Below are positions 37,966 through 55,394 of a stretch of 64,000 nt of DNA, in pieces (within the stretch, counting starts at the first letter, position 1; every line of letters begins with the position of its first letter). The notes under the pieces are model-generated. The model was not told the origin of the DNA. It did no database searches and saw only the letters and a program-made list of their open reading frames with translations. A program made the position numbers and the translations under genes. Source of the DNA: Mariprofundus sp. NF (GTDB lineage: Bacteria; Pseudomonadota; Zetaproteobacteria; Mariprofundales; Mariprofundaceae); assembly GCF_013387455.1 (NCBI RefSeq), contig NZ_VWNC01000003.1, positions 186,001 to 250,000 of the forward strand, read 5' to 3'.

Positions 37966-38355
37966 ATGAAACGCGTTGTTATTTCGGCACTATCGATTTT
38001 TCTTGCAGCAGGTCTGAGCGCCTGTGGTGATGGCGGCAACAGTAATGACATCGTTGGAAAAACCATGCAGAACCTCGCCAATGCATCCCTTCCCGGTGCT
38101 GATATCACACGCAGGGAGTGCGGCTCCTGCCACTATCTGGATAAAAACGTACGTAAGGTTGGCCCTTCACTGCAGGGCATCTATGGACAGGCTCCGAAAA
38201 CCAGAGGTATACCTGTTGAGGTATGGAATGAGGTGTCACTGGATGCATGGATTGAGAGTCCGACAGGCGTACATCCTGAAACTCGCATGAAGATTCCCGG
38301 CATCAAAGATGCGGAGAAACGCGCTCAGATCATTGAGTACATGAAAACGCTATAG
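37966..38355 (+). CDS. Lipoprotein cytochrome c (class I, monoheme)
   Basis: A 129-residue protein with lipobox LSAC ending at C20, one heme site CGSCH and the distal Met in TRMKIPGI. The fold pattern (GPSLQGIYG, then a WI--PT segment) is that of a class I cytochrome c. It probably carries electrons at the outer face of the inner membrane, for example to the oxidases encoded further along. Shine-Dalgarno GAGAGG is upstream. Confidence 0.93.
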   Translation: MKRVVISALSIFLAAGLSACGDGGNSNDIVGKTMQNLANASLPGADITRRECGSCHYLDKNVRKVGPSLQGIYGQAPKTRGIPVEVWNEVSLDAWIESPTGVHPETRMKIPGIKDAEKRAQIIEYMKTL

Positions 38356-38362
38356 GGCCTGC

Positions 38363-38773
38363 TCATAATCCTGTCGCTGCCGAAAGGCCTTCGATCATAA
38401 TAAACAGCATCATCCTGAATTTAACATAAAGCACCGTAATCAGTACGCCACTGATGGCTGTGATGGCGATGGGGTTCATCTCTGAATCTCTCATCACCAG
38501 CCTTGGCATCAGTATCGCACCACCCATCACACCTGAGCCGATTGATTGTAGTATCAACAGGAAAACCTTGATCACCGGCATCGATGGTACTGCATCCAAA
38601 CTGCCGAAGATCACCAGCGTCAGTGCAATAAAACCAACCCACGGCAGGTAGATAAACAGGTATTCGATAAAGTGAAAACGCACATCTTTGCGATGGCCGA
38701 GCATGATAATAGTGATGGCAATGATATTGGCCGGCACCAGATAGAAGATCAGAGAGAGGAGATAATCGTTCAT
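38363..38773 (-). CDS. Small membrane protein of unknown function
   Basis: A 136-residue protein with four predicted membrane helices (about 5-25, 41-61, 66-86 and 104-126). It has a short charged loop (MLGHRKDVRFHF) and no cofactor motif. It stands convergent to the cytochrome gene. I do not recognise the family. Confidence 0.6.
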   Translation of the reverse strand: MNDYLLSLIFYLVPANIIAITIIMLGHRKDVRFHFIEYLFIYLPWVGFIALTLVIFGSLDAVPSMPVIKVFLLILQSIGSGVMGGAILMPRLVMRDSEMNPIAITAISGVLITVLYVKFRMMLFIMIEGLSAATGL

Positions 38774-38869
38774 ATAGTCATCTTACCTCCTGTATTACCT
38801 CTGTGCAGATGGTATGCTTCGTCTTCAGCAGAGGCTACTTCTACACCTTTTCACGGAGAAACCCATCAT

Positions 38870-39466
38870 ATGAACAGCAAAATCGGTATGTTCCCAATTA
38901 TTGTTCTGGTTCTGGCTATCGGCATGATTGGCTTTGGCGTCTATAATCTGAACAAGATGCCGGAAACCAAATACCCGCAGTTCAAAGCTGCATTCACACT
39001 GCATAATGCTGAAGGCAGCGTCTCCTTCTCCGATCTGGCCGGCAAAGTCAGTATCATCTTTTTCGGTTATACCCACTGCCCGGATATCTGCCCTGCCACC
39101 CTGATTAATTTCGGCAAAGCCCTGAAGATGCTGGATGAAGATGAACAGAAACTGGTGCGTGCTGTGTTTATCTCTCTCGATCATGATCGCGATACGCCCG
39201 AAATGGTGAGTAAATACAGCAAATATTTTCATCCCGATATCATAGGCCTGACCGGTAACGAAGCAGAGATCACCGCTGCTGCCAAAGCCTTTATGGTTCC
39301 CAAAGAGAAGAACAAACCCAATGCCAAGGGCAACTACACCATGAACCACGGCACCTATCTCTACGTGATGCGCCCGGATGGCAAACTGGGAGAACTGGCC
39401 AGCCATCAGGACCCACCGGAGAAGATTGTTGCCTCCCTGCGCGCCTGGATCAAGTGGGCCGAGTAG
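38870..39466 (+). CDS. SCO1/SenC family protein
   Basis: A 198-residue membrane-anchored thioredoxin-fold protein (helix at about 7-27) with the copper motif GYTHCPDICPATL. The third ligand His is probably in NHGTYLYV. SCO proteins deliver copper to the CuA site of cytochrome oxidase or maintain its cysteines. The start is taken at ATG 38870 with GGAG upstream; a longer frame to 38672 is not conserved. It is one of three SCO genes in the window. Confidence 0.92.
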   Translation: MNSKIGMFPIIVLVLAIGMIGFGVYNLNKMPETKYPQFKAAFTLHNAEGSVSFSDLAGKVSIIFFGYTHCPDICPATLINFGKALKMLDEDEQKLVRAVFISLDHDRDTPEMVSKYSKYFHPDIIGLTGNEAEITAAAKAFMVPKEKNKPNAKGNYTMNHGTYLYVMRPDGKLGELASHQDPPEKIVASLRAWIKWAE

Positions 39467-39922: not shown

Positions 39923-41281
39923 TCAGCACATCTCTGCGAGCAACTCTGAAACTTTCTTCTGATCAAACGTCTTTTTATCAACTTTAAGATAAGCCACGCC
40001 ATCTTCCATGATCACCTTTACTTCGTGAACGCCAGCAAGCTGTTTGATCATCTCGGCAAGCTGTTCTGCGGCTGCTTGATCGCGCACTTCGACGTGAACC
40101 ATGAAGGATGAGAGATAAGCAGGCACTTTCATACCCAGTGCTAGCAATAGCCAGCCGAGTGCTGCAATGGCACAGGCGTAAAAGACAGCCTGCATGCCGA
40201 ACTCACCGGAGAGCCAGCCGCCCCCTGCCCCACCGATAAAGGCGCCGAGGAACTGGGAAGTTGAATAGACACCCATGGCGGTACCCTTGCTCTCTACAGG
40301 CGCCATACGTGAGATCAGCGAAGGCAGGCTCGCCTCCAGCACATTAAATGCCGTGAAGAAGAGCAGCAGACCGAAACCCACAGCAATCAGTGAACGCTGA
40401 TCGGTTCCCAGCATCACCTCGGCAACCACCATCAGCAGAATTGAACCAAGAAATACCTGTTTCATCTTCTGCCGCTTCTCAGCAAGCATCACCAGCGGTG
40501 CCATGCCGAGCACCGAAATCATCAACACAGGCAGGTAGAACCAGGCGTGTTCATCTGTCGGCAGACCCAGTTTATCCCTGAGCACAAAGGGAAGTGCGGT
40601 AAACATCGCCATCATAATACCGTGTTGAATCAAAATACCGACATCCAGCCTGAACAGCTGCGCATCGAAAAATATCTGTTTGAGCTGGGCGGGAACAGTC
40701 TCCACCTCACGGTGAAAATTGAGATGTTCGGGTTCCGGAACCAGCAGATAGAGAATAGCGATACCGGCTGCTGCCAACACCGCAGTCATCCAGAAGATAC
40801 CATCAACACCGATGGCACTGTTGAGTAGCGGGCCAACCATCAATGCCAGTGTGAACGACATGCCGATAGAGACACCCATAATCGCCATCGCTTTGGTGCG
40901 CTCCTCCTCCCGGGTCAGATCAGCCATCAGTGCCATCATGGCGGCGGCAATCGCGCCTGAGCCCTGAATAGCACGCCCGATAATCACGCCCCAGATCGAG
41001 TCGGACATCGCGGCGACCACACTACCGATGGCAAACAGCAGCAGGCCAAGGGTGATGATCGGCTTGCGGCCGAATCGATCCGATAACATACCGAAAGGGA
41101 TCTGGAAGATCGCCATGGTCAAGCCGTACACACCGAGTGCCAGACCGATCAGCATCGGGGTTACCCCTCCTAAACCTTCGGCATAGAGCGAGAAGACCGG
41201 CAGAATCATGAACAGGCCCAGCATACGCAGGCCATAGATGCCCGCCAGCGAGAAGACGCTGCGCCGCTCGAATGGGTTCAA
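39923..41281 (-). CDS. MFS transporter, YajR-like
   Basis: A 452-residue transporter with about twelve membrane helices, the MFS loop motif GMLSDRFGRKP, and a C-terminal soluble domain of about 65 residues (from VHVEVRDQAAAEQLAEMIKQ) with a ferredoxin-like pattern. That extra domain and the length match E. coli YajR with its YAM domain. The substrate of the family is not established. It overlaps no neighbour, and ctaA begins 10 bases further upstream of its start. Confidence 0.85.
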   Translation of the reverse strand: MNPFERRSVFSLAGIYGLRMLGLFMILPVFSLYAEGLGGVTPMLIGLALGVYGLTMAIFQIPFGMLSDRFGRKPIITLGLLLFAIGSVVAAMSDSIWGVIIGRAIQGSGAIAAAMMALMADLTREEERTKAMAIMGVSIGMSFTLALMVGPLLNSAIGVDGIFWMTAVLAAAGIAILYLLVPEPEHLNFHREVETVPAQLKQIFFDAQLFRLDVGILIQHGIMMAMFTALPFVLRDKLGLPTDEHAWFYLPVLMISVLGMAPLVMLAEKRQKMKQVFLGSILLMVVAEVMLGTDQRSLIAVGFGLLLFFTAFNVLEASLPSLISRMAPVESKGTAMGVYSTSQFLGAFIGGAGGGWLSGEFGMQAVFYACAIAALGWLLLALGMKVPAYLSSFMVHVEVRDQAAAEQLAEMIKQLAGVHEVKVIMEDGVAYLKVDKKTFDQKKVSELLAEMC

Positions 41282-41291
41282 ACGTTAATTC

Positions 41292-42335
41292 CTATTTTTC
41301 AGTGGATTGAAGCATGCGCAGGGTAAACAGCGAGAAGGCAAAGAGCACCATCGCACCACCCTGATGTGCAACGCCAAGATGCAGGTTTACTACCGAGAGA
41401 AGCGTGGCAACACCAAGGCAGAACTGGATCACAACCATGCCCAGCATCAGATGCATGCCCATTTTGGCCGCACCAACCAGCTCAAACCTTCTCGAGTAGA
41501 GGAACAGACCAATCACCAGCAGCAGTACCGTTTCAGCCAGAAGACGATGATTAAACTGAACCGCTGCAATATTCTCGAACCAGTTCAGGTAATACGGCTG
41601 CAACATGCCATAACCCTCTGGAATAAAGTTGCCACCCATCAACGGGAAGGTGTTGTAGGCAAAACCAGCCTTCAGACCCGCTACAAAGCCGCCTGCAGCG
41701 ATAGTAACGGCAATCAGCAGTGTGACTATGGCTACAGCCTTAAACAGCGGTTTAACGTCATAGAGCGAAGGTTCACGCTTGGGAAAGAGAAGACCCGCCG
41801 CTACCCAGAGAATATAGGCAAAGATCGCGAAGGCCGCCATCAGATGGGCAGTCAGTCGATACTGGCTGACATGGGCCTGATCAAAACCACTGCTTACCAT
41901 GTACCAGCCCAGCACACCCTGCATGCCACCGAGTGCGAACATAATCACCAGCTGCGGACGCAAAGGTTTGCTGATCTTGCCGGCAATCAGGAAATAGAGG
42001 AACGGCAGCAGGAAGAAGATACCGATCAGGCGGCCCCATACACGATGGATATACTCAAGCATAAAGATGCCTTTATACCCTTCCAAATCCATATTCGGGT
42101 TCAGCTCATAGAATTCAGGAATCTGCTTGTAGTGTTTGAATGACTCCAGCCATGCCGCTTCACTCAAAGGTGGAATCCAGCCCATCAGCGGATCCCATGT
42201 CATCATCGAAAGCCCTGAGTGGGTCAAACGTGTTGCTCCGCCAATCACCAGCATAATAAAAATGGCAGCGCAGACGAAAAGTAACCAGTAGGCGATCTGC
42301 CTGTCGTATTGAACCTGATCGGTATGACTCATCAC
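41292..42335 (-). CDS. ctaA: Heme A synthase CtaA (COX15)
   Basis: A 347-residue membrane protein with eight helices, the conserved GGATRLTHSGLSMMTWDP near the N-terminus and paired His ligands (for example HRVWGR, AHLMAAF, NHRLLAE, HLGVAHQGGA). It oxidises heme O, made by CtaB, to heme A. The type is the longer alpha-proteobacterial/mitochondrial COX15 form. It lies directly downstream of the heme-copper-oxidase-like gene. Confidence 0.94.
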   Translation of the reverse strand: MMSHTDQVQYDRQIAYWLLFVCAAIFIMLVIGGATRLTHSGLSMMTWDPLMGWIPPLSEAAWLESFKHYKQIPEFYELNPNMDLEGYKGIFMLEYIHRVWGRLIGIFFLLPFLYFLIAGKISKPLRPQLVIMFALGGMQGVLGWYMVSSGFDQAHVSQYRLTAHLMAAFAIFAYILWVAAGLLFPKREPSLYDVKPLFKAVAIVTLLIAVTIAAGGFVAGLKAGFAYNTFPLMGGNFIPEGYGMLQPYYLNWFENIAAVQFNHRLLAETVLLLVIGLFLYSRRFELVGAAKMGMHLMLGMVVIQFCLGVATLLSVVNLHLGVAHQGGAMVLFAFSLFTLRMLQSTEK

Positions 42336-43700
42336 TTAGACTCCGTTAACCAGTTTATTGCGACCTTTCAGCATCACAGGCAACACCACAAAGGCAAACA
42401 GCAGGCCGGAGAGTACGGCAATCACACCGCCAAGACCAACCAGATCCTGTGGTGTGATCATACTCTGCAAACCGATATCCTGTGTAGTACCAACCACCTT
42501 ACGTTTCATACCATGACCACCGCCCCAGGCGAGACCGACGATATGCATAATCTGACCCACAGCATAGGTGTAGACCTGAATACGCGCCCACTTCAGATTT
42601 GGCGTGGCAAAACCGAATTGCGGCAACCAGTAGTAGGTCATCGCCATAAAGGCCATGGTTACAGCTACAATCGAACCGTGGTAATGGGCTGTGATTAAGG
42701 TACTGCTCTCACCGATAAACAGACCAAGTACACCACCCATGGCAAACAGAGTGATCGAAAAGATCAGTGCAGTATAGAGATGACGTGAAGCCTTATCCGC
42801 AGCAGGCTGGGTTAGTAGGGCCCAGACCACTGGCAGACCAATCAGCAGTGGCGCAACACCGTTACCATCACGCATCAACCAGACATACCAACCCATAAAT
42901 TCAGGGCCACCAACATCATAGGCAAGGAAAGGCCATGGCATCATCAATACCGGAGCAACACCAATGGCAAAGGCTGCCATCAGATAGAGCGGTTTGGCTT
43001 TCACCTCAAGGCCGGAGGCCTGAGCAATCCAGAGCCATGCAACACAGATCAGTGCGGTATGGGCAAACTGCAGAATATGGCCACCGGCCCAGTAGAGGCT
43101 CTCATAGTAGGAGCGACCACTGGCAACAGGTGTATCGATAAAGGTCCAGATCAGTGCGATCATCGCGATCAATGTGGCAAGCGCCGCTGTCAGCGTGCCA
43201 AAGCGAATCGCCCCCTCACCACTATTCTCGCGTGACTCCTGACACTTCAGTGCCCACATCGAGCGCAGCACGAGTAGCAACACACCCCCACCAAAGACAA
43301 TCAACCCTTTGATAAACATGCGATTTTCAAGCATAGGAACATAGTTGTTGGTCAGTGGATTGGCATCACCGGTTAATGGAGAGATCCCAATCACAACGCC
43401 ACCGAAGACCACCAGAAACAGCGATAGCCAGCCTGTCATCACCTGCCTGCCACCGGTATTGAGCGTCCAGAAGACACCGGCAATGGCAATCAGCCACCAC
43501 AACACAGTGAAATCAACATGCAGTACCAGAGCGGTGTAGAAGAAATCTTTCCAGGGCATCTCATAGGTGGTCCTGGCCAGTGCCAGCAGCAGTGGATAGA
43601 TGCCTGATGCCAGTAAAAATCCAACTGCAACATAGAGCCAGCCTACAGCCAGCTTGCTCTGTGGTGATTCGGTAATGGGAAGAGAGAACTTTGTCGTCAT
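42336..43700 (-). CDS. Divergent heme-copper oxidase subunit I-like protein, incomplete CuB site
   Basis: A 454-residue protein with about twelve membrane helices and distant similarity to cytochrome oxidase/NO reductase subunit I. Candidate ligands are H61 for low-spin heme, H208 in WAGGHILQFAH for the helix VI position, and H339/H341 in ITAHYHGS for the two heme axial ligands of helix X. The adjacent His-His of helix VII is not present anywhere between 220 and 300; that part reads YVWLMRDGNG. Also no HPEVY or cross-linked Tyr is seen. It probably binds heme but may not reduce oxygen. It is adjacent to ctaA. Confidence 0.75.
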   Translation of the reverse strand: MTTKFSLPITESPQSKLAVGWLYVAVGFLLASGIYPLLLALARTTYEMPWKDFFYTALVLHVDFTVLWWLIAIAGVFWTLNTGGRQVMTGWLSLFLVVFGGVVIGISPLTGDANPLTNNYVPMLENRMFIKGLIVFGGGVLLLVLRSMWALKCQESRENSGEGAIRFGTLTAALATLIAMIALIWTFIDTPVASGRSYYESLYWAGGHILQFAHTALICVAWLWIAQASGLEVKAKPLYLMAAFAIGVAPVLMMPWPFLAYDVGGPEFMGWYVWLMRDGNGVAPLLIGLPVVWALLTQPAADKASRHLYTALIFSITLFAMGGVLGLFIGESSTLITAHYHGSIVAVTMAFMAMTYYWLPQFGFATPNLKWARIQVYTYAVGQIMHIVGLAWGGGHGMKRKVVGTTQDIGLQSMITPQDLVGLGGVIAVLSGLLFAFVVLPVMLKGRNKLVNGV

Positions 43701-43785: not shown

Positions 43786-45054
43786 CTAATTCACCTCATC
43801 CATATTTGCCGCTACAGCACGCGCAAAATATTTAGCCAGAGCTTCGCTGGGAGATGAGTTTTTGTCTTTTAAACCTTCCAAAGAAATTATCACATCAAAT
43901 CCGTGTCTATAAAACCTGATTCGAACTTTGTGGGCTCGATCATTTTCCTCTTTCTTGATTATCGCCCGCTTTCCTTCAGTCAAATAGCTATAACCCTGAC
44001 TCCTCACTGAATCGGCCATTATTCTTCTTATGTTCATTTCGTCTCTCGGACTTATTCGCACATAGAGGTTAGAGCGTGAAATCCTGCGCTTAGAATCCTT
44101 CGGGTCTCGCCAAACATTCTTCTGCAAAACAAAACCTTGATCTCTGCTAACTCGTATCGATTGAGTCCATATCTTCCCATCAGGTTGAGTTTGTATCGGT
44201 ATATGTCTCGAATTCTTCTCTGGCAGATGCCACCACCCTTTTGGAAGTTGATCCGGGACTCTCACGAAAAATGATTTTACATCCTTACTTTTGCCTGCAG
44301 CAGCCGCAATCATCTTCAGGTCAGAAGCAACTTTCTCCCATGCACCCTTAATAATCTGTTCACTATCGCGTGCCAGCAGGTCTTTCTGATAACTCGATTC
44401 AAACCGTTTGATCCAGAAGTCATCAATCTCTTTCCAAAGACTGGCTTCAAGTTTCTTGCCTATGTGTTCAGGATTATACCCTTTGGCTTTGACCAGTTCA
44501 TAATACATCTTCGTTTTAATCGGATAATATTTGCCGCTTGCTGTGGCCAGTGTGAATGCCTCATCCGGCGAGGCGGTACTGTAATCGTATCTGCCACCGC
44601 GATGATGTTTGAATCGCTCATAAATCGCAGACTCCATGGATGGGATAAAGATAATATCACGTATGGCCTCTAATGAAACTTGATAGAGTTTTACTGAAGA
44701 TACAAAAAAGACAAATGAAGCGGGATAGGTTTTTTCCATGAATTTATCCACCAGCTTTCCAACTTGCCAGTCATACACTTCTGCCAGTGCTTCTGAATCT
44801 TGGGCATGAAATAGAAGATCCACTATTTTAATCGCTGTGAGTGTATCCTTCACAGTATCAAAGAGCGCTAGTTTCTCCTCCAATAGGCCACCTATAATAT
44901 CGGTCGTGAGTCCGGTTCGGCTGGCAACTTCATCGACAAGTTCCTGATTGGTCGCTTCAACATTCAGATTATCCGCAACCGATGGCACGGGAGCTAGAAA
45001 CATCCCTGAGGCCAATAATAGTGATGCTGAATAAATACTCAGGCGACTGTTTTT
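43786..45054 (-). CDS. Exported protein of unknown function, paralogue of the next gene upstream
   Basis: A 422-residue protein with a signal peptide (about 1-27; VPSVADN cleavage) and no other membrane segment. It aligns along its whole length with the product of the upstream gene (45068-46345): shared blocks include the stretch around GLTTDIIGGLLEE, KLYQVSLEAIRDIIFIPSME, PDEAFTLATASGKY and KGYNPEHIGKKLE, and the C-terminus SSPSEALAKYFARAVAAN. Translation starts at ATG 45054, placed by AAGGAG upstream. The gene follows its paralogue by 13 bases. The family is unrecognised; the mature protein is helical then mixed, with no catalytic motif. Confidence 0.75.
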   Translation of the reverse strand, partial: KNSRLSIYSASLLLASGMFLAPVPSVADNLNVEATNQELVDEVASRTGLTTDIIGGLLEEKLALFDTVKDTLTAIKIVDLLFHAQDSEALAEVYDWQVGKLVDKFMEKTYPASFVFFVSSVKLYQVSLEAIRDIIFIPSMESAIYERFKHHRGGRYDYSTASPDEAFTLATASGKYYPIKTKMYYELVKAKGYNPEHIGKKLEASLWKEIDDFWIKRFESSYQKDLLARDSEQIIKGAWEKVASDLKMIAAAAGKSKDVKSFFVRVPDQLPKGWWHLPEKNSRHIPIQTQPDGKIWTQSIRVSRDQGFVLQKNVWRDPKDSKRRISRSNLYVRISPRDEMNIRRIMADSVRSQGYSYLTEGKRAIIKKEENDRAHKVRIRFYRHGFDVIISLEGLKDKNSSPSEALAKYFARAVAANMDEVN

Positions 45055-45067
45055 CATCTCGAACTCC

Positions 45068-46345
45068 TTAGTTGATTTTGGCTGCCACAATACGGGCAAA
45101 GTGTTTTGCCATATCTTCGCTGGGAGAGGAGTTGGTGTTGATTTTACCCGACAAGTCCATACTCACATGGAAACCCTTCCTGTAGAATCGGATAAATATT
45201 GTTCGATTCTTACCCCTGCCATCTGATTTAATCACTGCCATGTTGTTCTCACTCATGAACTGAAAACCGGATTTCTCCACGCTGTATTGCATGGATTTTT
45301 TCTCACGAGCTTCATCTGGCGTTGGACTGATTCGGATATCCAGCTTAACCATTGAAATCTTCCGTTTTGGCTCTTTGGGGTCTTTCCAATAAATACTCGT
45401 GTCGCCCTGTTTCACAAAACCTGAATCCCTGCTAATGAAAAAGAACTGTTTCCAGACAGTGCTCTTAGGGTTCATGCGTGCAGCCGCCGTGCTGGTCCAG
45501 CTCCCTGTAGGAGAGAACCACCACCCCTTCGGCAGGTCATCTGGCACATGCAGAAAGAAGTTTGCAATATCATTGCTCTTGCCGGCAGCAGCTTTGATCG
45601 CTTTCAGTTCAGGCCCCATTTTGGCCCATGCATCATGGATGATCTGCTCTTTTTCCTGCTTGAACAGTTCCTGCTGATATTGCGTCTCCAGTCGCTGCAC
45701 CCAAAAAGCATCAATCTGTTTCCACAGGGCATCTTCGAGTTTCTTACCTATATGTTTGGGATCGTACCCTTTGGCTTTGACCAGCTCGTCATGCATTTTC
45801 TGTTTGGCCGGAAAATATTTACCTCTGGCCGTAGCCTCATCAAAGGCCTCATCGGGCGAGGCATAGCGGAAATCGAGTGCACCACCTCGGGCGGTTTTGA
45901 ATCGATCATAGATGGCTGCTTCCATTGATGGGATGAAGATGTAGTCCCGGATGGCTTCCAGGGCGTCCTTGTAGAGTTTCACCGCCCCGAAAAACGAGGT
46001 CATGGAGCCGGGCAGTATCTTACCGACAAATTTGTCCACATATGCATCCATTTCACGGGTAATCAACTCGGTCAGCACTTCAGCATCCTGAGCACTAAAC
46101 AGCATATCAACGAGTTTAACGGCGGTGATGGTGTCCTTGATATTGCCAAACAGGTCCGGACTCTCTTTCAGCAATCTGTCCAACACATCAAAACCGAGTC
46201 CGGTCTGGCGCTCCACTTCAGCAATGACTTCCTGATTGCCCGGTTCAATATCGCCTTCAGCAGATTGTGCAGAGACAGGTATGAAAAGCAGCCCTGAAAG
46301 AAGGATTGGGTATAAAAAAGTTCTCAAATGCCACTTCAGCTTCAT
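45068..46345 (-). CDS. Exported protein of unknown function, paralogue of the next gene downstream
   Basis: A 425-residue protein with a signal peptide (about 1-28; SAQSAEG cleavage). The long shared blocks with the downstream product (for example RTPDIG-like start NQEVIAEVERQTGLGFDVLD, KLYKDALEAIRDYIFIPSME, and the C-terminal RFYRKGFHVSMDL) show a tandem duplication. It is the first gene of the pair and is divergent from the cytochrome b561-like gene at 46499. No function can be assigned. Confidence 0.75.
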   Translation of the reverse strand: MKLKWHLRTFLYPILLSGLLFIPVSAQSAEGDIEPGNQEVIAEVERQTGLGFDVLDRLLKESPDLFGNIKDTITAVKLVDMLFSAQDAEVLTELITREMDAYVDKFVGKILPGSMTSFFGAVKLYKDALEAIRDYIFIPSMEAAIYDRFKTARGGALDFRYASPDEAFDEATARGKYFPAKQKMHDELVKAKGYDPKHIGKKLEDALWKQIDAFWVQRLETQYQQELFKQEKEQIIHDAWAKMGPELKAIKAAAGKSNDIANFFLHVPDDLPKGWWFSPTGSWTSTAAARMNPKSTVWKQFFFISRDSGFVKQGDTSIYWKDPKEPKRKISMVKLDIRISPTPDEAREKKSMQYSVEKSGFQFMSENNMAVIKSDGRGKNRTIFIRFYRKGFHVSMDLSGKINTNSSPSEDMAKHFARIVAAKIN

Positions 46346-49127: not shown

Positions 49128-49688
49128 TCATTGCGGCGAAGCTACACCCTGAGCAGGCGTTGCAACTGTGGTATCGGTCACAATGATTGATCCGACCATA
49201 CCTGCATGACCCGAGCCACAAAACTCACCGCATATAACATCAAAGCGCCCCGCCTTGATCGGAGCGAATTCAATCGTCTTGAATTCACCAACCTTAATCC
49301 TGTTCTGCAGCCTCAGTTCGCGCACAATAATGGCGTGCTTCATATCCAGTGTGGCCAGATGCAGGCGGTAGGTTACCCCCTTCTCCAGCTCCAGCGTGTA
49401 TTTGCCCCAATCATAATTCTTGGCCAGCAGATAGATATCGGAGCCAGCCGGCGGATGCACTACAGGCAGTTCATTCTCTACACGTACAGTGTAGCTATTC
49501 ACCATCTGCTTCACCTTCTCCTGAAAACCAACCAGATCTGCGCGGGTAATCTTCTCTTTGGTGACGATAATATCCGGCTGACTGTTCTTCATATTCAGAT
49601 AAACAGGTACAACGATTGCTACGGCAAAAACAATGGTTACCAGAAGCAGTTTATAGTTAAGCCCTTTTTTCACAGTTGTTTCACTCAT
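49128..49688 (-). CDS. Short cytochrome c oxidase subunit II-like CuA protein
   Basis: A 186-residue protein with a single N-terminal membrane anchor (about 13-31) and a cupredoxin domain with a complete CuA motif: His in DMKHAIIV, then CGEFCGSGHAGM. Ordinary subunit II has two membrane helices and is longer, as ctaC at 54612 is. The single anchor is like the subunit II of ba3-type oxidases. It may pair with the subunit I-like protein at 42336, although the genes are 5 kb apart. Confidence 0.9.
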   Translation of the reverse strand: MSETTVKKGLNYKLLLVTIVFAVAIVVPVYLNMKNSQPDIIVTKEKITRADLVGFQEKVKQMVNSYTVRVENELPVVHPPAGSDIYLLAKNYDWGKYTLELEKGVTYRLHLATLDMKHAIIVRELRLQNRIKVGEFKTIEFAPIKAGRFDVICGEFCGSGHAGMVGSIIVTDTTVATPAQGVASPQ

Positions 49689-49848: not shown

Positions 49849-50412
49849 ATGGCAGAAACCAAGAACAAACCACCAGTATCTCAAAAAATGCTCATTCTGG
49901 TACTCATCGGCCTCGTACTTACTCTGGGTGGTGGCGCTTCTGTCATGCTCTATCTGGGTGCATTTAAGGATCCTGAGGTCTATCGCTCGGTTACCCAAGA
50001 GTACCATTTTGCCTATATCAGCCATAAAGGTCCCTACACCAACATCGACCCCATTCTGGAAGAGGTCGCCAAACAGCTAAAAGAGTCCGATATTCAAGCT
50101 GTTACGCCATGTGCAATGTTTATGGATAGTGTCTCAGCCGTACAGGAGGCGGACCGCCAGAGCAAAATCGGTTATCTGGTCCAGCGCAACGACTATATTG
50201 CTGCCCCTCTTGAGCAGATGAGCATCCCGTCACGCGAAGTGGTCGTAGCCACATTTGAGGGTGGCACGCTGCTTGGTTCCCATAAAGCTTATACAGGCAT
50301 GCGCGACTGGGCTCGGGCCAACGGCTACCAGCTGATGCTGCCAGCCTTTGAGATCTATCACCCGGAAGGCAAGGTAGAGTATCAGCTGCCTATCCAGAAG
50401 AAGCAGTACTGA
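49849..50412 (+). CDS. Membrane-anchored GyrI-like protein
   Basis: A 187-residue protein with one membrane helix (about 15-36) and a GyrI/AraC-effector-binding fold (YHFAYISHKGPYTNIDPILE to EIYHPEGKVEYQLPI). Such domains usually bind small molecules and are normally cytoplasmic and soluble; here the domain would lie outside the membrane. The gene is convergent with the 40-residue gene. Function unknown. Confidence 0.8.
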   Translation: MAETKNKPPVSQKMLILVLIGLVLTLGGGASVMLYLGAFKDPEVYRSVTQEYHFAYISHKGPYTNIDPILEEVAKQLKESDIQAVTPCAMFMDSVSAVQEADRQSKIGYLVQRNDYIAAPLEQMSIPSREVVVATFEGGTLLGSHKAYTGMRDWARANGYQLMLPAFEIYHPEGKVEYQLPIQKKQY

Positions 50413-51898: not shown

Positions 51899-52789
51899 TC
51901 AGATCGAGTCGATGATCATGATTCCAAAAAGCAGAATCAGGTAGATGATAGAGAATGCAAACACACGCATATCACTATCACGTTCTGAACGGTAGAAACG
52001 AACTGCCGTAAACAGGAACATAGAGCTGAGCATAATAGATGCAGCAAGATAGATAGAACCGGCAATATCAAAATACCATGGTGTCATGGCCACAGGAATC
52101 AGTGCAATGGTATAGAGAAGGATGCGGAGCTTGGTGGCATAAACACCACAGGCAACCGGAATCACCGGCACATTGGCACGCGCATACTCCTCGCGATATT
52201 TCAGTGCCAGAGCCAGCGCATGCGGCTGCTGCCAGACCACCATAATCGCAAACAGTACCCAGCCAGCTGCACCCAACTCATTGGTTACAGCTGCATAACC
52301 CACCATCGGAGGTACAGCACCGGCAATACCACCGAACTGATTCGCCCAGGGAGTCCTGCGTTTCATCCACATGGTGTAAACACCGACATAACCAATAACA
52401 CCTACTGCAGTTACAGCAGCAGTAAGAGGGTTTACTGTCCAGGCCATCAATGCCAGTGAAGAAGTGGTCAGTAGCATCGCCACAATAAACACACGGTTTG
52501 CCGATACAGCACCGGCAGCAAGAGCGCGGTTACTGGTGCGCTTCATCAACTTATCAATGTCGCGATCATAATGGTTATTGAGCATGCAGGAGCCGGCAGT
52601 TGCCAGACCAAGCGTCAGAAAGGTCCAACCGATCAGATGCCAGTGTGGCATAACACCATGATTACCGAAGTATATGCCGGTCAAAGCAGCAACAAGAGTC
52701 AGGCCGACAATGCCCGGTTTAGACATTGAGACATAGTCCGAAATAACGGAACGGGTAGAAATCTGCTGTTCAGCTAATGATTGACTCAT
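51899..52789 (-). CDS. ctaB: Protoheme IX farnesyltransferase CtaB (heme O synthase)
   Basis: A 296-residue membrane prenyltransferase with about nine helices and the Asp-rich motif NNHYDRDIDKLMKRTSNRAL. It converts heme B to heme O, which CtaA then oxidises to heme A for the aa3 oxidase. AGGAGAGGG lies upstream. It is the first gene after the terminator at 52862. Confidence 0.95.
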   Translation of the reverse strand: MSQSLAEQQISTRSVISDYVSMSKPGIVGLTLVAALTGIYFGNHGVMPHWHLIGWTFLTLGLATAGSCMLNNHYDRDIDKLMKRTSNRALAAGAVSANRVFIVAMLLTTSSLALMAWTVNPLTAAVTAVGVIGYVGVYTMWMKRRTPWANQFGGIAGAVPPMVGYAAVTNELGAAGWVLFAIMVVWQQPHALALALKYREEYARANVPVIPVACGVYATKLRILLYTIALIPVAMTPWYFDIAGSIYLAASIMLSSMFLFTAVRFYRSERDSDMRVFAFSIIYLILLFGIMIIDSI

Positions 52790-52905: not shown

Positions 52906-54585
52906 TTAGTGATGCCCGGAAGTGCCAGGGTGTGGCTCAAACTCAGGCTTAGGATTGTCGATGAAGTTGTATGGATGCCAACCTTCAGGACAAATTACAG
53001 GTGTTGGGAAGTTACCCTGACCTGGAATGATAGCAGTAGCTGTGAATTCCAGAGACTGAGAACCCCAAGGGTTCGCAGAGGTAGCTTTCTCACCAGCAAT
53101 CGCACCATGCAGCCAAACAACGATCATCAGCAGAGCTGATACGAAAGTGATGTAGATACCGATGGTTGACCAGTGCTGAGCACTTACGATGAGCTCGTTA
53201 TCAGCGTACATCTGGTAGTCCATGTAACGACGTGGCATACCTTCCATACCAGCGAAGTAGAGTGGACCCATCACGATGTTCATACCGATGAAGAAACCAG
53301 CAGCAGTCAGCTTAGTCATCAGGCTGTTGCACATACGACCGGTCAGTTTAGGGAACCAGAAGAATACGCCAGCGAAGATCGCCATACCGCCGGATACTGC
53401 CATCACATAGTGGAAGTGAGACATGATCACGTAGGAATCGGAGATACCATAATCGATAGCAGAAAGTGCATTTGGAATACCAGTCAACGCGCCGATAATC
53501 AGCATGAAGAAAGCACCAACAGCCCACCACATAGGACCAGTGTAGCGAATCGCGCCACGGTACATAGTACCAGTGAGTGACAGCATCAACAGGCCGAATG
53601 GCAGAGAGATCAGCAGGGTTGTGAATGTCTGCAGCAGACGCAGCCAGTCAGGCAGACCTGCAACGTATGCGTGATGCACCCAAACGTCAGAAGATACTGG
53701 AATGAACGCGATAACAGCCCATACAGTAGCTTTGTAGTTGAATACGTCGTTGCGTGCAGATACAGCGAAGATCTCGAACATAATACCCATAAATGGCAGC
53801 AGAATTACATATACAGCTGGATGTGAGTAGAACCAGAAGAGGTTCTGATACAGCAGCACGTCGCCACCAACTTCAGGATTGTAGAATCCGAAGCCGAGGT
53901 ATTTGTCCAGAGAGAGCAGCAGTACAGATGCAGCCAGTACTGGTACGAAGATCAGCTGAATAACGTTTGCAGTGAATACACACCATACAGTCAAAGGCAT
54001 CTGGAACCAGCCCATGCCTTTGCAACGCATGAATGCAACAGTACAAGCCAGGTTAACCGCACCGAATACAGAAGACATACCCAGGATGATTACTACTGAA
54101 GAGTAGAGTGCAGTGTTACCTACAGCGTCAGTCAGTGAGTAAGGCGGGTAACCAGTCCACATGCCGTTGTATGAATCTGGAATAACCAGGTTCAGCAGAG
54201 CAAGCAGGATACCAGACCACAGCAGCCATACAGACATCGCATTCACACGTGGGAACGCCATATCTTTACCGCCAACCATAATAGGCACAGCCCAGTTAGC
54301 TACGAAGCCCAGCAGGGCAGGAATCTGGAAGCCCAGAATCATTACGGCACCGTGCATAGTCAGCCACAGGTTGTAGATATCACCATTGTCTGTGATATCC
54401 GGACCTACGGAGCCCAGCTCGATACGCATTGCAGTTGCAGCAAGACCTGCAACAACGAAAGATGCGATCGCACCAATCAGGTACCATACACCGATGACCT
54501 TATGGTCAAGGGTGAATACCCATTCTTTTACTGTTTTTGGCTGACCCGGCTTACCGTCCGGCTCATGTCCCATAAAACCACTCAT
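52906..54585 (-). CDS. ctaD: Cytochrome c oxidase subunit I (aa3, A2 type)
   Basis: A 559-residue subunit I with twelve helices, H255 as CuB ligand in YSHPAVY, H304/H305 (WVHHAY) as the other two CuB ligands, Y259 cross-linked to H255 in the family, and axial H390 and H392 (MSHFHYVM). The helix VI motif is YSHPAVY, not HPEVY: the D-channel Glu is replaced by the Tyr-Ser of A2-type oxidases such as those of Rhodothermus. So it is a proton-pumping A2-type oxidase. It is ten times longer upstream-coupled with ctaC by a 26-base gap. Confidence 0.96.
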   Translation of the reverse strand: MSGFMGHEPDGKPGQPKTVKEWVFTLDHKVIGVWYLIGAIASFVVAGLAATAMRIELGSVGPDITDNGDIYNLWLTMHGAVMILGFQIPALLGFVANWAVPIMVGGKDMAFPRVNAMSVWLLWSGILLALLNLVIPDSYNGMWTGYPPYSLTDAVGNTALYSSVVIILGMSSVFGAVNLACTVAFMRCKGMGWFQMPLTVWCVFTANVIQLIFVPVLAASVLLLSLDKYLGFGFYNPEVGGDVLLYQNLFWFYSHPAVYVILLPFMGIMFEIFAVSARNDVFNYKATVWAVIAFIPVSSDVWVHHAYVAGLPDWLRLLQTFTTLLISLPFGLLMLSLTGTMYRGAIRYTGPMWWAVGAFFMLIIGALTGIPNALSAIDYGISDSYVIMSHFHYVMAVSGGMAIFAGVFFWFPKLTGRMCNSLMTKLTAAGFFIGMNIVMGPLYFAGMEGMPRRYMDYQMYADNELIVSAQHWSTIGIYITFVSALLMIVVWLHGAIAGEKATSANPWGSQSLEFTATAIIPGQGNFPTPVICPEGWHPYNFIDNPKPEFEPHPGTSGHH

Positions 54586-54611: not shown

Positions 54612-55394
54612 TTAAATCTGGTCAGCAGCAGTTGCAGCTTTTGCAACGCCGGTTACAGACGGAATAGATGCAGTCTGCTCAGCAACGTACGCATCATAAT
54701 CAGCAGCAGACTTCACAATGATCTTACCGTACATGCCAGAGTGCATAGTACCGCAGTACTCACGACAGGTCGCAACAGACTCGCCAACCTGATCAGGCAT
54801 GAACCACTGCCAGGTAATACGACCAGGCATCAGATCCTCAGTTACACGGTAACGAGTCATGTAGTGAGAGTGCAGCACATCGTCAGAAACCATGCGCATT
54901 ACAACAGGAGTGCCCTGTTTAACTACAAGTTCGTTGTCAGTGTCGATGCCATTGACATCTACATAGTTCCAGTTCCACATAGAACCGGTCAGTTTCACTT
55001 CAACAGCGTTGGTAGGAACTTCACGGTAGTGGTTGTGCAGGTCGAAACCTTTCACATACAGGAACAGATCGTCGCCCAAAAACAGCATACAAGGGAGAAC
55101 AACCCAGCCGATTTTAGCCTGGTTGGTAAGCGTAGGCAGTTTGCCGCGCTCGCCGTGGCCTTTACGTACGTACATAACCATGAACGCAACAGTAATAACA
55201 GCAAAGACAATACCGAGAACGGTGATATCCAGCATGGTCTCGTGCCAAACAGCGTCCCAGTGCTCGTGTGGAGTCCAGCCGTTGTAGTCAGCACGATGCG
55301 CAGGTGCAGCTTGGAATGCATGCGCCAGTGACGGTATCAGAGGCAGTGCAAGCATTGCCGCCATCACTTTATGCATAAGTGATTTAAATTTCAT
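54612..55394 (-). CDS. ctaC: Cytochrome c oxidase subunit II
   Basis: A 260-residue subunit II with a signal peptide ending near AHA (about 24-26), two membrane helices and a complete CuA site (His in LHSHYM, then CREYCGTMHSGMYG). It lacks a C-terminal heme domain, so it takes electrons from a separate cytochrome c. It overlaps the SCO gene by 11 bases. Confidence 0.95.
   Translation of the reverse strand: MKFKSLMHKVMAAMLALPLIPSLAHAFQAAPAHRADYNGWTPHEHWDAVWHETMLDITVLGIVFAVITVAFMVMYVRKGHGERGKLPTLTNQAKIGWVVLPCMLFLGDDLFLYVKGFDLHNHYREVPTNAVEVKLTGSMWNWNYVDVNGIDTDNELVVKQGTPVVMRMVSDDVLHSHYMTRYRVTEDLMPGRITWQWFMPDQVGESVATCREYCGTMHSGMYGKIIVKSAADYDAYVAEQTASIPSVTGVAKAATAADQI

Follow-up and report, generated by a model that had tools for sequence, protein, structure and literature searches.

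We found that the iron-oxidising zetaproteobacterium Mariprofundus sp. NF encodes a full-length homologue of heme-copper oxidase subunit I that has kept the histidines of both heme positions and lost the CuB site, that is paired with the heme A synthase gene ctaA, and whose family is nearly mutually exclusive with SURF1 in a sample of Pseudomonadota genomes. Our reading, which remains tentative and falls a little short of an even chance, is that this CuB-less cytochrome, derived from the B-type branch, assists CtaA in the making or hand-over of heme A, perhaps in the slot of SURF1. The gene is located on the reverse strand of the window (the whole stretch of 64,000 nucleotides that was analysed) and belongs to a genome of 2.5 Mb. 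The nearest named relative is Mariprofundus sp. KV, with a protein 97% identical. The features discussed below are collected in Table 1.

Table 1. Positions in the window of the COX1-like gene, its ligand codons and the neighbouring genes.
Feature	Position	Strand	Evidence and remarks
Small monoheme cytochrome c	37966..38355	+	PF00034; conserved nearby
SCO1/SenC	38672..39466	+	PF02630; conserved nearby
MFS transporter, third gene of the run	39923..41281	-	PF07690; 3′ of ctaA in Zetaproteobacterial loci
CtaA, heme A synthase, next gene	41292..42335	-	PF02628, E 2.3e-99
CuB-less COX1-like protein, 454 aa	42336..43700	-	ATG at 43700, stop 42338-42336; PF00115; model pTM 0.83, matches oxidase subunit I structures
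H339-Y340-H341 codons, helix X	42678..42686	-	H339 and H341: His in 63/63
P257-F258 codons, expected helix VII His-His site	42927..42932	-	Alignment
F212 codon, catalytic Tyr position of O2 reductases	43065..43067	-	Alignment
H208 codon, helix VI CuB-ligand position	43077..43079	-	His in 63/63 family members
H61 codon, low-spin heme ligand position, helix II	43518..43520	-	His in 63/63; same alignment column as the canonical His in aa3 and B-type COX1
Stand-alone CuA-domain protein, subunit II-like, possible partner	49128..49688	-	CoxB-like; motif CGEFCGSGHAGM
CtaB, heme O synthase	51899..52789	-	UbiA family; in aa3 cluster
True aa3 oxidase subunit I, complete ligands	52906..54585	-	PF00115, E 8.4e-114; YSHPAVY and WVHHAY motifs
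aa3 oxidase subunit II with CuA motif	54612..55394	-	PF00116

The protein was assigned to the heme-copper oxidase superfamily as a subunit I homologue by its Pfam match to COX1, which covered residues 17-426 (62.8 bits, E 3.6e-17; cut-off 34.8). The Pfam scan returned no other domain, so that the protein belongs neither to the SURF1 family (PF02104) nor to the NnrS family, for which there was no match at E ≤ 0.01. The AlphaFold model, built on a shallow alignment of 12 homologues, reached a mean pLDDT of 76.7, with residues 114-119 and 398-412 poorly modelled. In a Foldseek search it matched subunit I chains of A, B and C type oxidases at 12-17% identity, the better matches having TM-scores by query of 0.71-0.75 to the oxidase chains, and model and matches together revealed the 12-helix oxidase fold, within the limits of the shallow alignment. 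A phmmer search of the PDB with the single protein gave no match, and a profile search of solved structures returned only subunit I of the Aquifex aeolicus ba3 oxidase (7deg), as a weak hit (E 0.007). When the gene was compared with five relatives, dN/dS values of 0.07-0.11 were obtained, similar to those of the neighbouring ctaA, indicating a working gene that is not decaying. These values, the intact relatives and the ligand pattern kept across the family ruled out a pseudogene or a sequencing error. No plasmid homologues of the protein were found.

The ligand positions were determined by aligning 63 family members, 47 of the short and 16 of the long form, with nine COX1 sequences, three of them B-type and six aa3. 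H61, H208, H339 and H341, which the first-pass annotation had placed at the heme positions and one CuB position, occupied exactly these places and were kept in 47/47 short and 16/16 long members. H61 and H341 correspond to the bis-His pair of the low-spin heme and H339 to the proximal His of the high-spin heme. In oxidases, an RR pair binds the heme propionates; its counterpart was RK (R400/K401) in all 63 family members. H386, in helix XI, was invariant in the short form only, while R43 and Q211 were common to the family and the B-type proteins and not to aa3.

The CuB site presented a different picture. The same annotation had reported no adjacent His-His between residues 220 and 300, and with coordinates, strand and frame found correct, this holds for the entire protein, whose only eight histidines are residues 61, 208, 214, 307, 339, 341, 386 and 396. 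The B-type His-His of helix VII fell exactly on P257-F258 in 3/3 sequences, and one histidine of the aa3 pair aligned there; a His pair elsewhere in helix VII that might complete the site was looked for in the alignment and was not found. The pair was absent from all 63 sampled members, with no His among the residues tallied at position 257. Position 258 alone was His in 22/47 short members, none of them Zetaproteobacterial, so that the loss of the CuB site is graded across the wider family. At position 212, 46/47 short members had Phe, the aa3 proteins had Tyr (6/6) and the local NOR-like B-type proteins had Gln (3/3). Judged by these residues, the family fails the tested defining features of both enzyme classes: P257-F258 and F212 stand where O2-reducing oxidases have the helix VII pair of a three-His CuB site and the cross-linked active-site Tyr, and from the three-His metal site plus acid or Gln of nitric oxide reductases only H208 and Q211 are present. 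This ligand pattern predicts a protein that binds two hemes and no normal CuB, and oxygen reduction in the usual way, already doubted in the first-pass annotation, appears very unlikely because the full site is missing.

A reductase of an unusual kind, acting for instance on NO or O2 at a one- or two-His metal site or at an empty site beside the heme, would be in line with the invariant H208, with the Q211 shared with NOR-like B-type proteins and with the His258 of almost half of the short members (22/47). We consider it improbable, since in Zetaproteobacteria a single ligand is left and Tyr has become Phe, and since the genomes already carry aa3 and cbb3 oxidases. The genome of strain NF holds two further COX1 genes, that of the aa3 enzyme, which comes with subunits II and III, CtaB and SCO of its own, and a second one on the same contig, which we take from its sequence to be cbb3-like. 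The COX1-like protein as the only oxidase of the organism was thereby excluded.

In a phylogenetic tree the family was separate from both B-type and aa3 proteins and lay on the B-type side, with long branches that make the deep order uncertain; derivation from the B-type (NOR-like) branch is the best reading of the sequences. With its B-type/NOR-like relatives (the A. aeolicus ba3 protein and the GHSSQQ/AHHI proteins of loci L047, L052 and L062) the COX1-like protein has in common the fold, the histidines of helices II, VI and X, R43, Q211 and the position of the propionate loop. Unlike them, it is shorter, lacks the helix VII His pair, has Phe instead of their Tyr or Gln at position 212 and carries RK in place of their RR.

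The position next to ctaA, which had also been pointed out from the sequence, proved meaningful. The start of ctaA directly follows the stop codon of the COX1-like gene, and in several relatives the two genes overlap by 4 bases. Among 78 Zetaproteobacteria genomes, CtaA and the COX1-like family occurred in the same 14 and were both missing from the other 64; aa3 CoxA was found in 12 of the 14, the two genomes without it being 74% and 69% complete. Since this set is a single class, the co-occurrence may go back to a single block of genes that was gained or lost a few times. Where the flank of a second, divergent copy was available (G204, G142 and G275), it adjoined a second, divergent CtaA, and two of these CtaA-like proteins, when aligned, had lost one conserved His. 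Outside Zetaproteobacteria, ctaA was divergently adjacent in 12 genomes (G118, G139, G055, G099, G081, G129, G042, G049, G038, G143, G045 and G079) and, in G107, was found at a distance of about 3.3 kb. The other short-form genomes had ctaA elsewhere, except G095, which alone lacked it; about half of the short-form genomes thus do not have ctaA adjacent. Other families outside this class placed the COX1-like gene also within aa3 clusters with CoxA, CtaB and SCO (L075, L084 and L096). A mirror-tree comparison of the family with CtaA was not discriminating, CtaB and CoxA correlating equally well or better.

Several neighbours were recorded in addition. Two similar tandem genes of the window (43786-45099 and 45068-46345, reverse strand) encode predicted exported proteins of 425-437 aa with no Pfam match, and a membrane-anchored GyrI-like protein (49849-50412, forward strand), conserved in several Zetaproteobacterial loci, is encoded beside the CuA gene. 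In family f38 (L052, L053, L075, L077 and L079), genes for an ABC ATPase and an ABC-2 permease adjoin the COX1-like gene, usually on its 3′ side. The cluster that holds a second Mariprofundaceae copy (L062:907-10861; also L061, L081 and L098) further encodes a NOR-like B-type COX1 (GHSTQQ, VHH), SCO, a CuA subunit II, a pair of cytochrome b/FeS fusion proteins, an orphan protein of 167 aa and a divergent CtaA with one conserved His lost.

The distribution of SURF1 was analysed in 398 Pseudomonadota genomes. CtaA was present in 276 of them, 218 with SURF1 and 58 without it. The short form occurred in 48/58 SURF1-negative versus 2/218 SURF1-positive genomes (Fisher p 4e-41, not to be taken at face value because the positives are phylogenetically clumped). 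The positives were mostly Zetaproteobacteria and one other sequence clade, and this clumping leaves possibly as few as two to four independent events. Likewise, SURF1 was missing from 43/45 family-positive genomes tested, and none was detected in the genome studied here or in any of the 23 Mariprofundus genomes searched. In G365, the COX1-like gene was part of a B-type oxidase cluster and SURF1 lay near the ordinary ctaA; G079 possessed SURF1, yet its COX1-like gene was beside ctaA. Seven CtaA-positive genomes had neither SURF1 nor a family member. One of them, G195, is 57% complete, and the other six (G057, G294, G362, G344, G311 and G354) may hold yet another factor.

The genomic evidence points to heme A synthesis or oxidase biogenesis rather than to sensing or copper handling. 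Heme sensing and copper functions, proposed in the first-pass annotation along with quinol functions, lost ground, as neither a sensor domain nor a copper-handling motif was found in the protein. An open heme could bind gases, and genes for a PAS protein and a cNMP-binding membrane protein lie nearby; a role as a membrane sensor that reads gas or heme status through its heme is nevertheless very improbable, given that the protein has no signalling domain and that the conservation of these two genes as neighbours does not extend to most relatives.

In the mechanism that we propose, the COX1-like protein would be made together with CtaA and work beside it. H61 and H341 would most likely hold one low-spin heme, and H339 a second heme with H208 on its distal side. 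Shaped like subunit I, the protein could thereby accept, store or hand over new heme, presumably heme A, en route to the aa3 oxidase, and might fill the place that SURF1 has elsewhere. This role beside CtaA is favoured by the ligand pattern of the 63 members, the dN/dS values, the 14/14 co-occurrence with CtaA including second copies, the divergent adjacency of ctaA in 12 genomes, the near exclusion of SURF1, the members within aa3 clusters and precedents from Paracoccus SURF1 (PMC9145763) and an Acetobacter COX1-like protein (PMC10715153). It is weakened by the half of the short-form genomes in which ctaA is not adjacent, by a SURF1 exclusion clumped on few lineages that may be history and not function, by G079 and the seven CtaA-positive genomes lacking both SURF1 and the family, by long paralogues near cytochrome c machinery instead of CtaA, and by the nearby Zetaproteobacterial CuA gene, which suggests electron transfer.

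SURF1 of Paracoccus is a heme A-binding protein for which storage and chaperoning of this heme and modulation of CtaA have been proposed, although its exact role and the entry of heme A into subunit I are called unresolved (PMC9145763). The slot proposed here, heme A handling next to CtaA, is alike, while the fold is unrelated: SURF1 has two membrane spans and a periplasmic domain (PMC9145763) and no sequence similarity to the COX1-like protein. CtaM, Caa3_CtaG and Cox11 are likewise patchy factors with genes in oxidase clusters; they are not presented as COX1 homologues, and their steps are different or unknown (PMC9145763). Acetobacter has kept, next to CtaB, a COX1-like protein that has no metal ligands (PMC10715153). 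Like the Mariprofundus protein, it is a subunit I relative without a working metal site beside a heme-modifying enzyme; compared by description, it reportedly has no cofactor ligands and is linked to CtaB, whereas the Mariprofundus family keeps its heme ligands and is linked to CtaA. The Acetobacter protein was interpreted as structural (PMC10715153), and the protein studied here could similarly be a structural or vestigial relative of subunit I whose sole use is the stabilisation of CtaA or of an assembly complex, with any bound heme unimportant. Such a role has little probability, as the heme ligands and the propionate pair are invariant in 63 members and the Acetobacter protein reportedly lacks all ligands. 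Our search of openly licensed papers found no account of the COX1-like protein. Neither Mariprofundus nor Zetaproteobacteria nor such a protein is named in a study that traces how heme A oxidases arose in iron oxidisers (PMC8239418), and a paper on Zetaproteobacterial aa3 oxidases does not mention ctaA or heme A (PMC5513912).

The main rival to a role in heme A hand-over arises from the nearby CuA gene. In Zetaproteobacteria, the COX1-like protein might be the heme subunit of a two-subunit electron-transfer complex. The CuA protein would then receive electrons from a periplasmic cytochrome c, and both hemes would relay them to quinone or to a partner protein, for which CtaA, with an oxygen chemistry that requires electrons, is the most plausible candidate. 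The CuA protein has a full motif, its gene is directly upstream of the COX1-like gene in L010, L012, L014 and L015 and mostly within a few kb in the other Zetaproteobacterial loci, and the aa3 enzyme already has its own subunit II. We regard this complex as rather unlikely: such a CuA gene was missing from the neighbourhood of the family member in L017 and in most non-Zetaproteobacterial loci, where the CuA protein as a partner is unsupported. The long CuB-less paralogues, which are grouped with 11-heme cytochromes, speak in favour of this alternative. The genes for these proteins of about 600-740 aa (L054, L055, L057, L059, L060, L064, L100 and L101) are repeatedly clustered with those for ResB, CcsA, an NHL protein and an 11-heme cytochrome. 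The C-terminal extension of the long paralogues resembles TPR repeats by eye, and no added heme c domain was seen. As both forms lie near machinery that modifies or attaches heme, a heme-handling role is favoured, with electron input equally open for the long form. The hand-over and electron-transfer explanations overlap if the electrons go to CtaA. A broader proposal makes the CuB-less COX1 paralogue a heme A biogenesis factor that acts with CtaA and, in several proteobacterial lineages, takes the place of SURF1; as a mock subunit I, it would accept new heme A (or supply CtaA with electrons) before the oxidase is loaded. This proposal is possible although doubtful.

Altogether, a conserved CuB-less subunit I gene that is tied to ctaA and mostly occurs without SURF1 constitutes a concrete and testable candidate. 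PF00115 (COX1) matches should be checked for CuB ligands before they are counted as terminal oxidases, a caution that applies, for example, when the oxygen metabolism of iron oxidisers is inferred.
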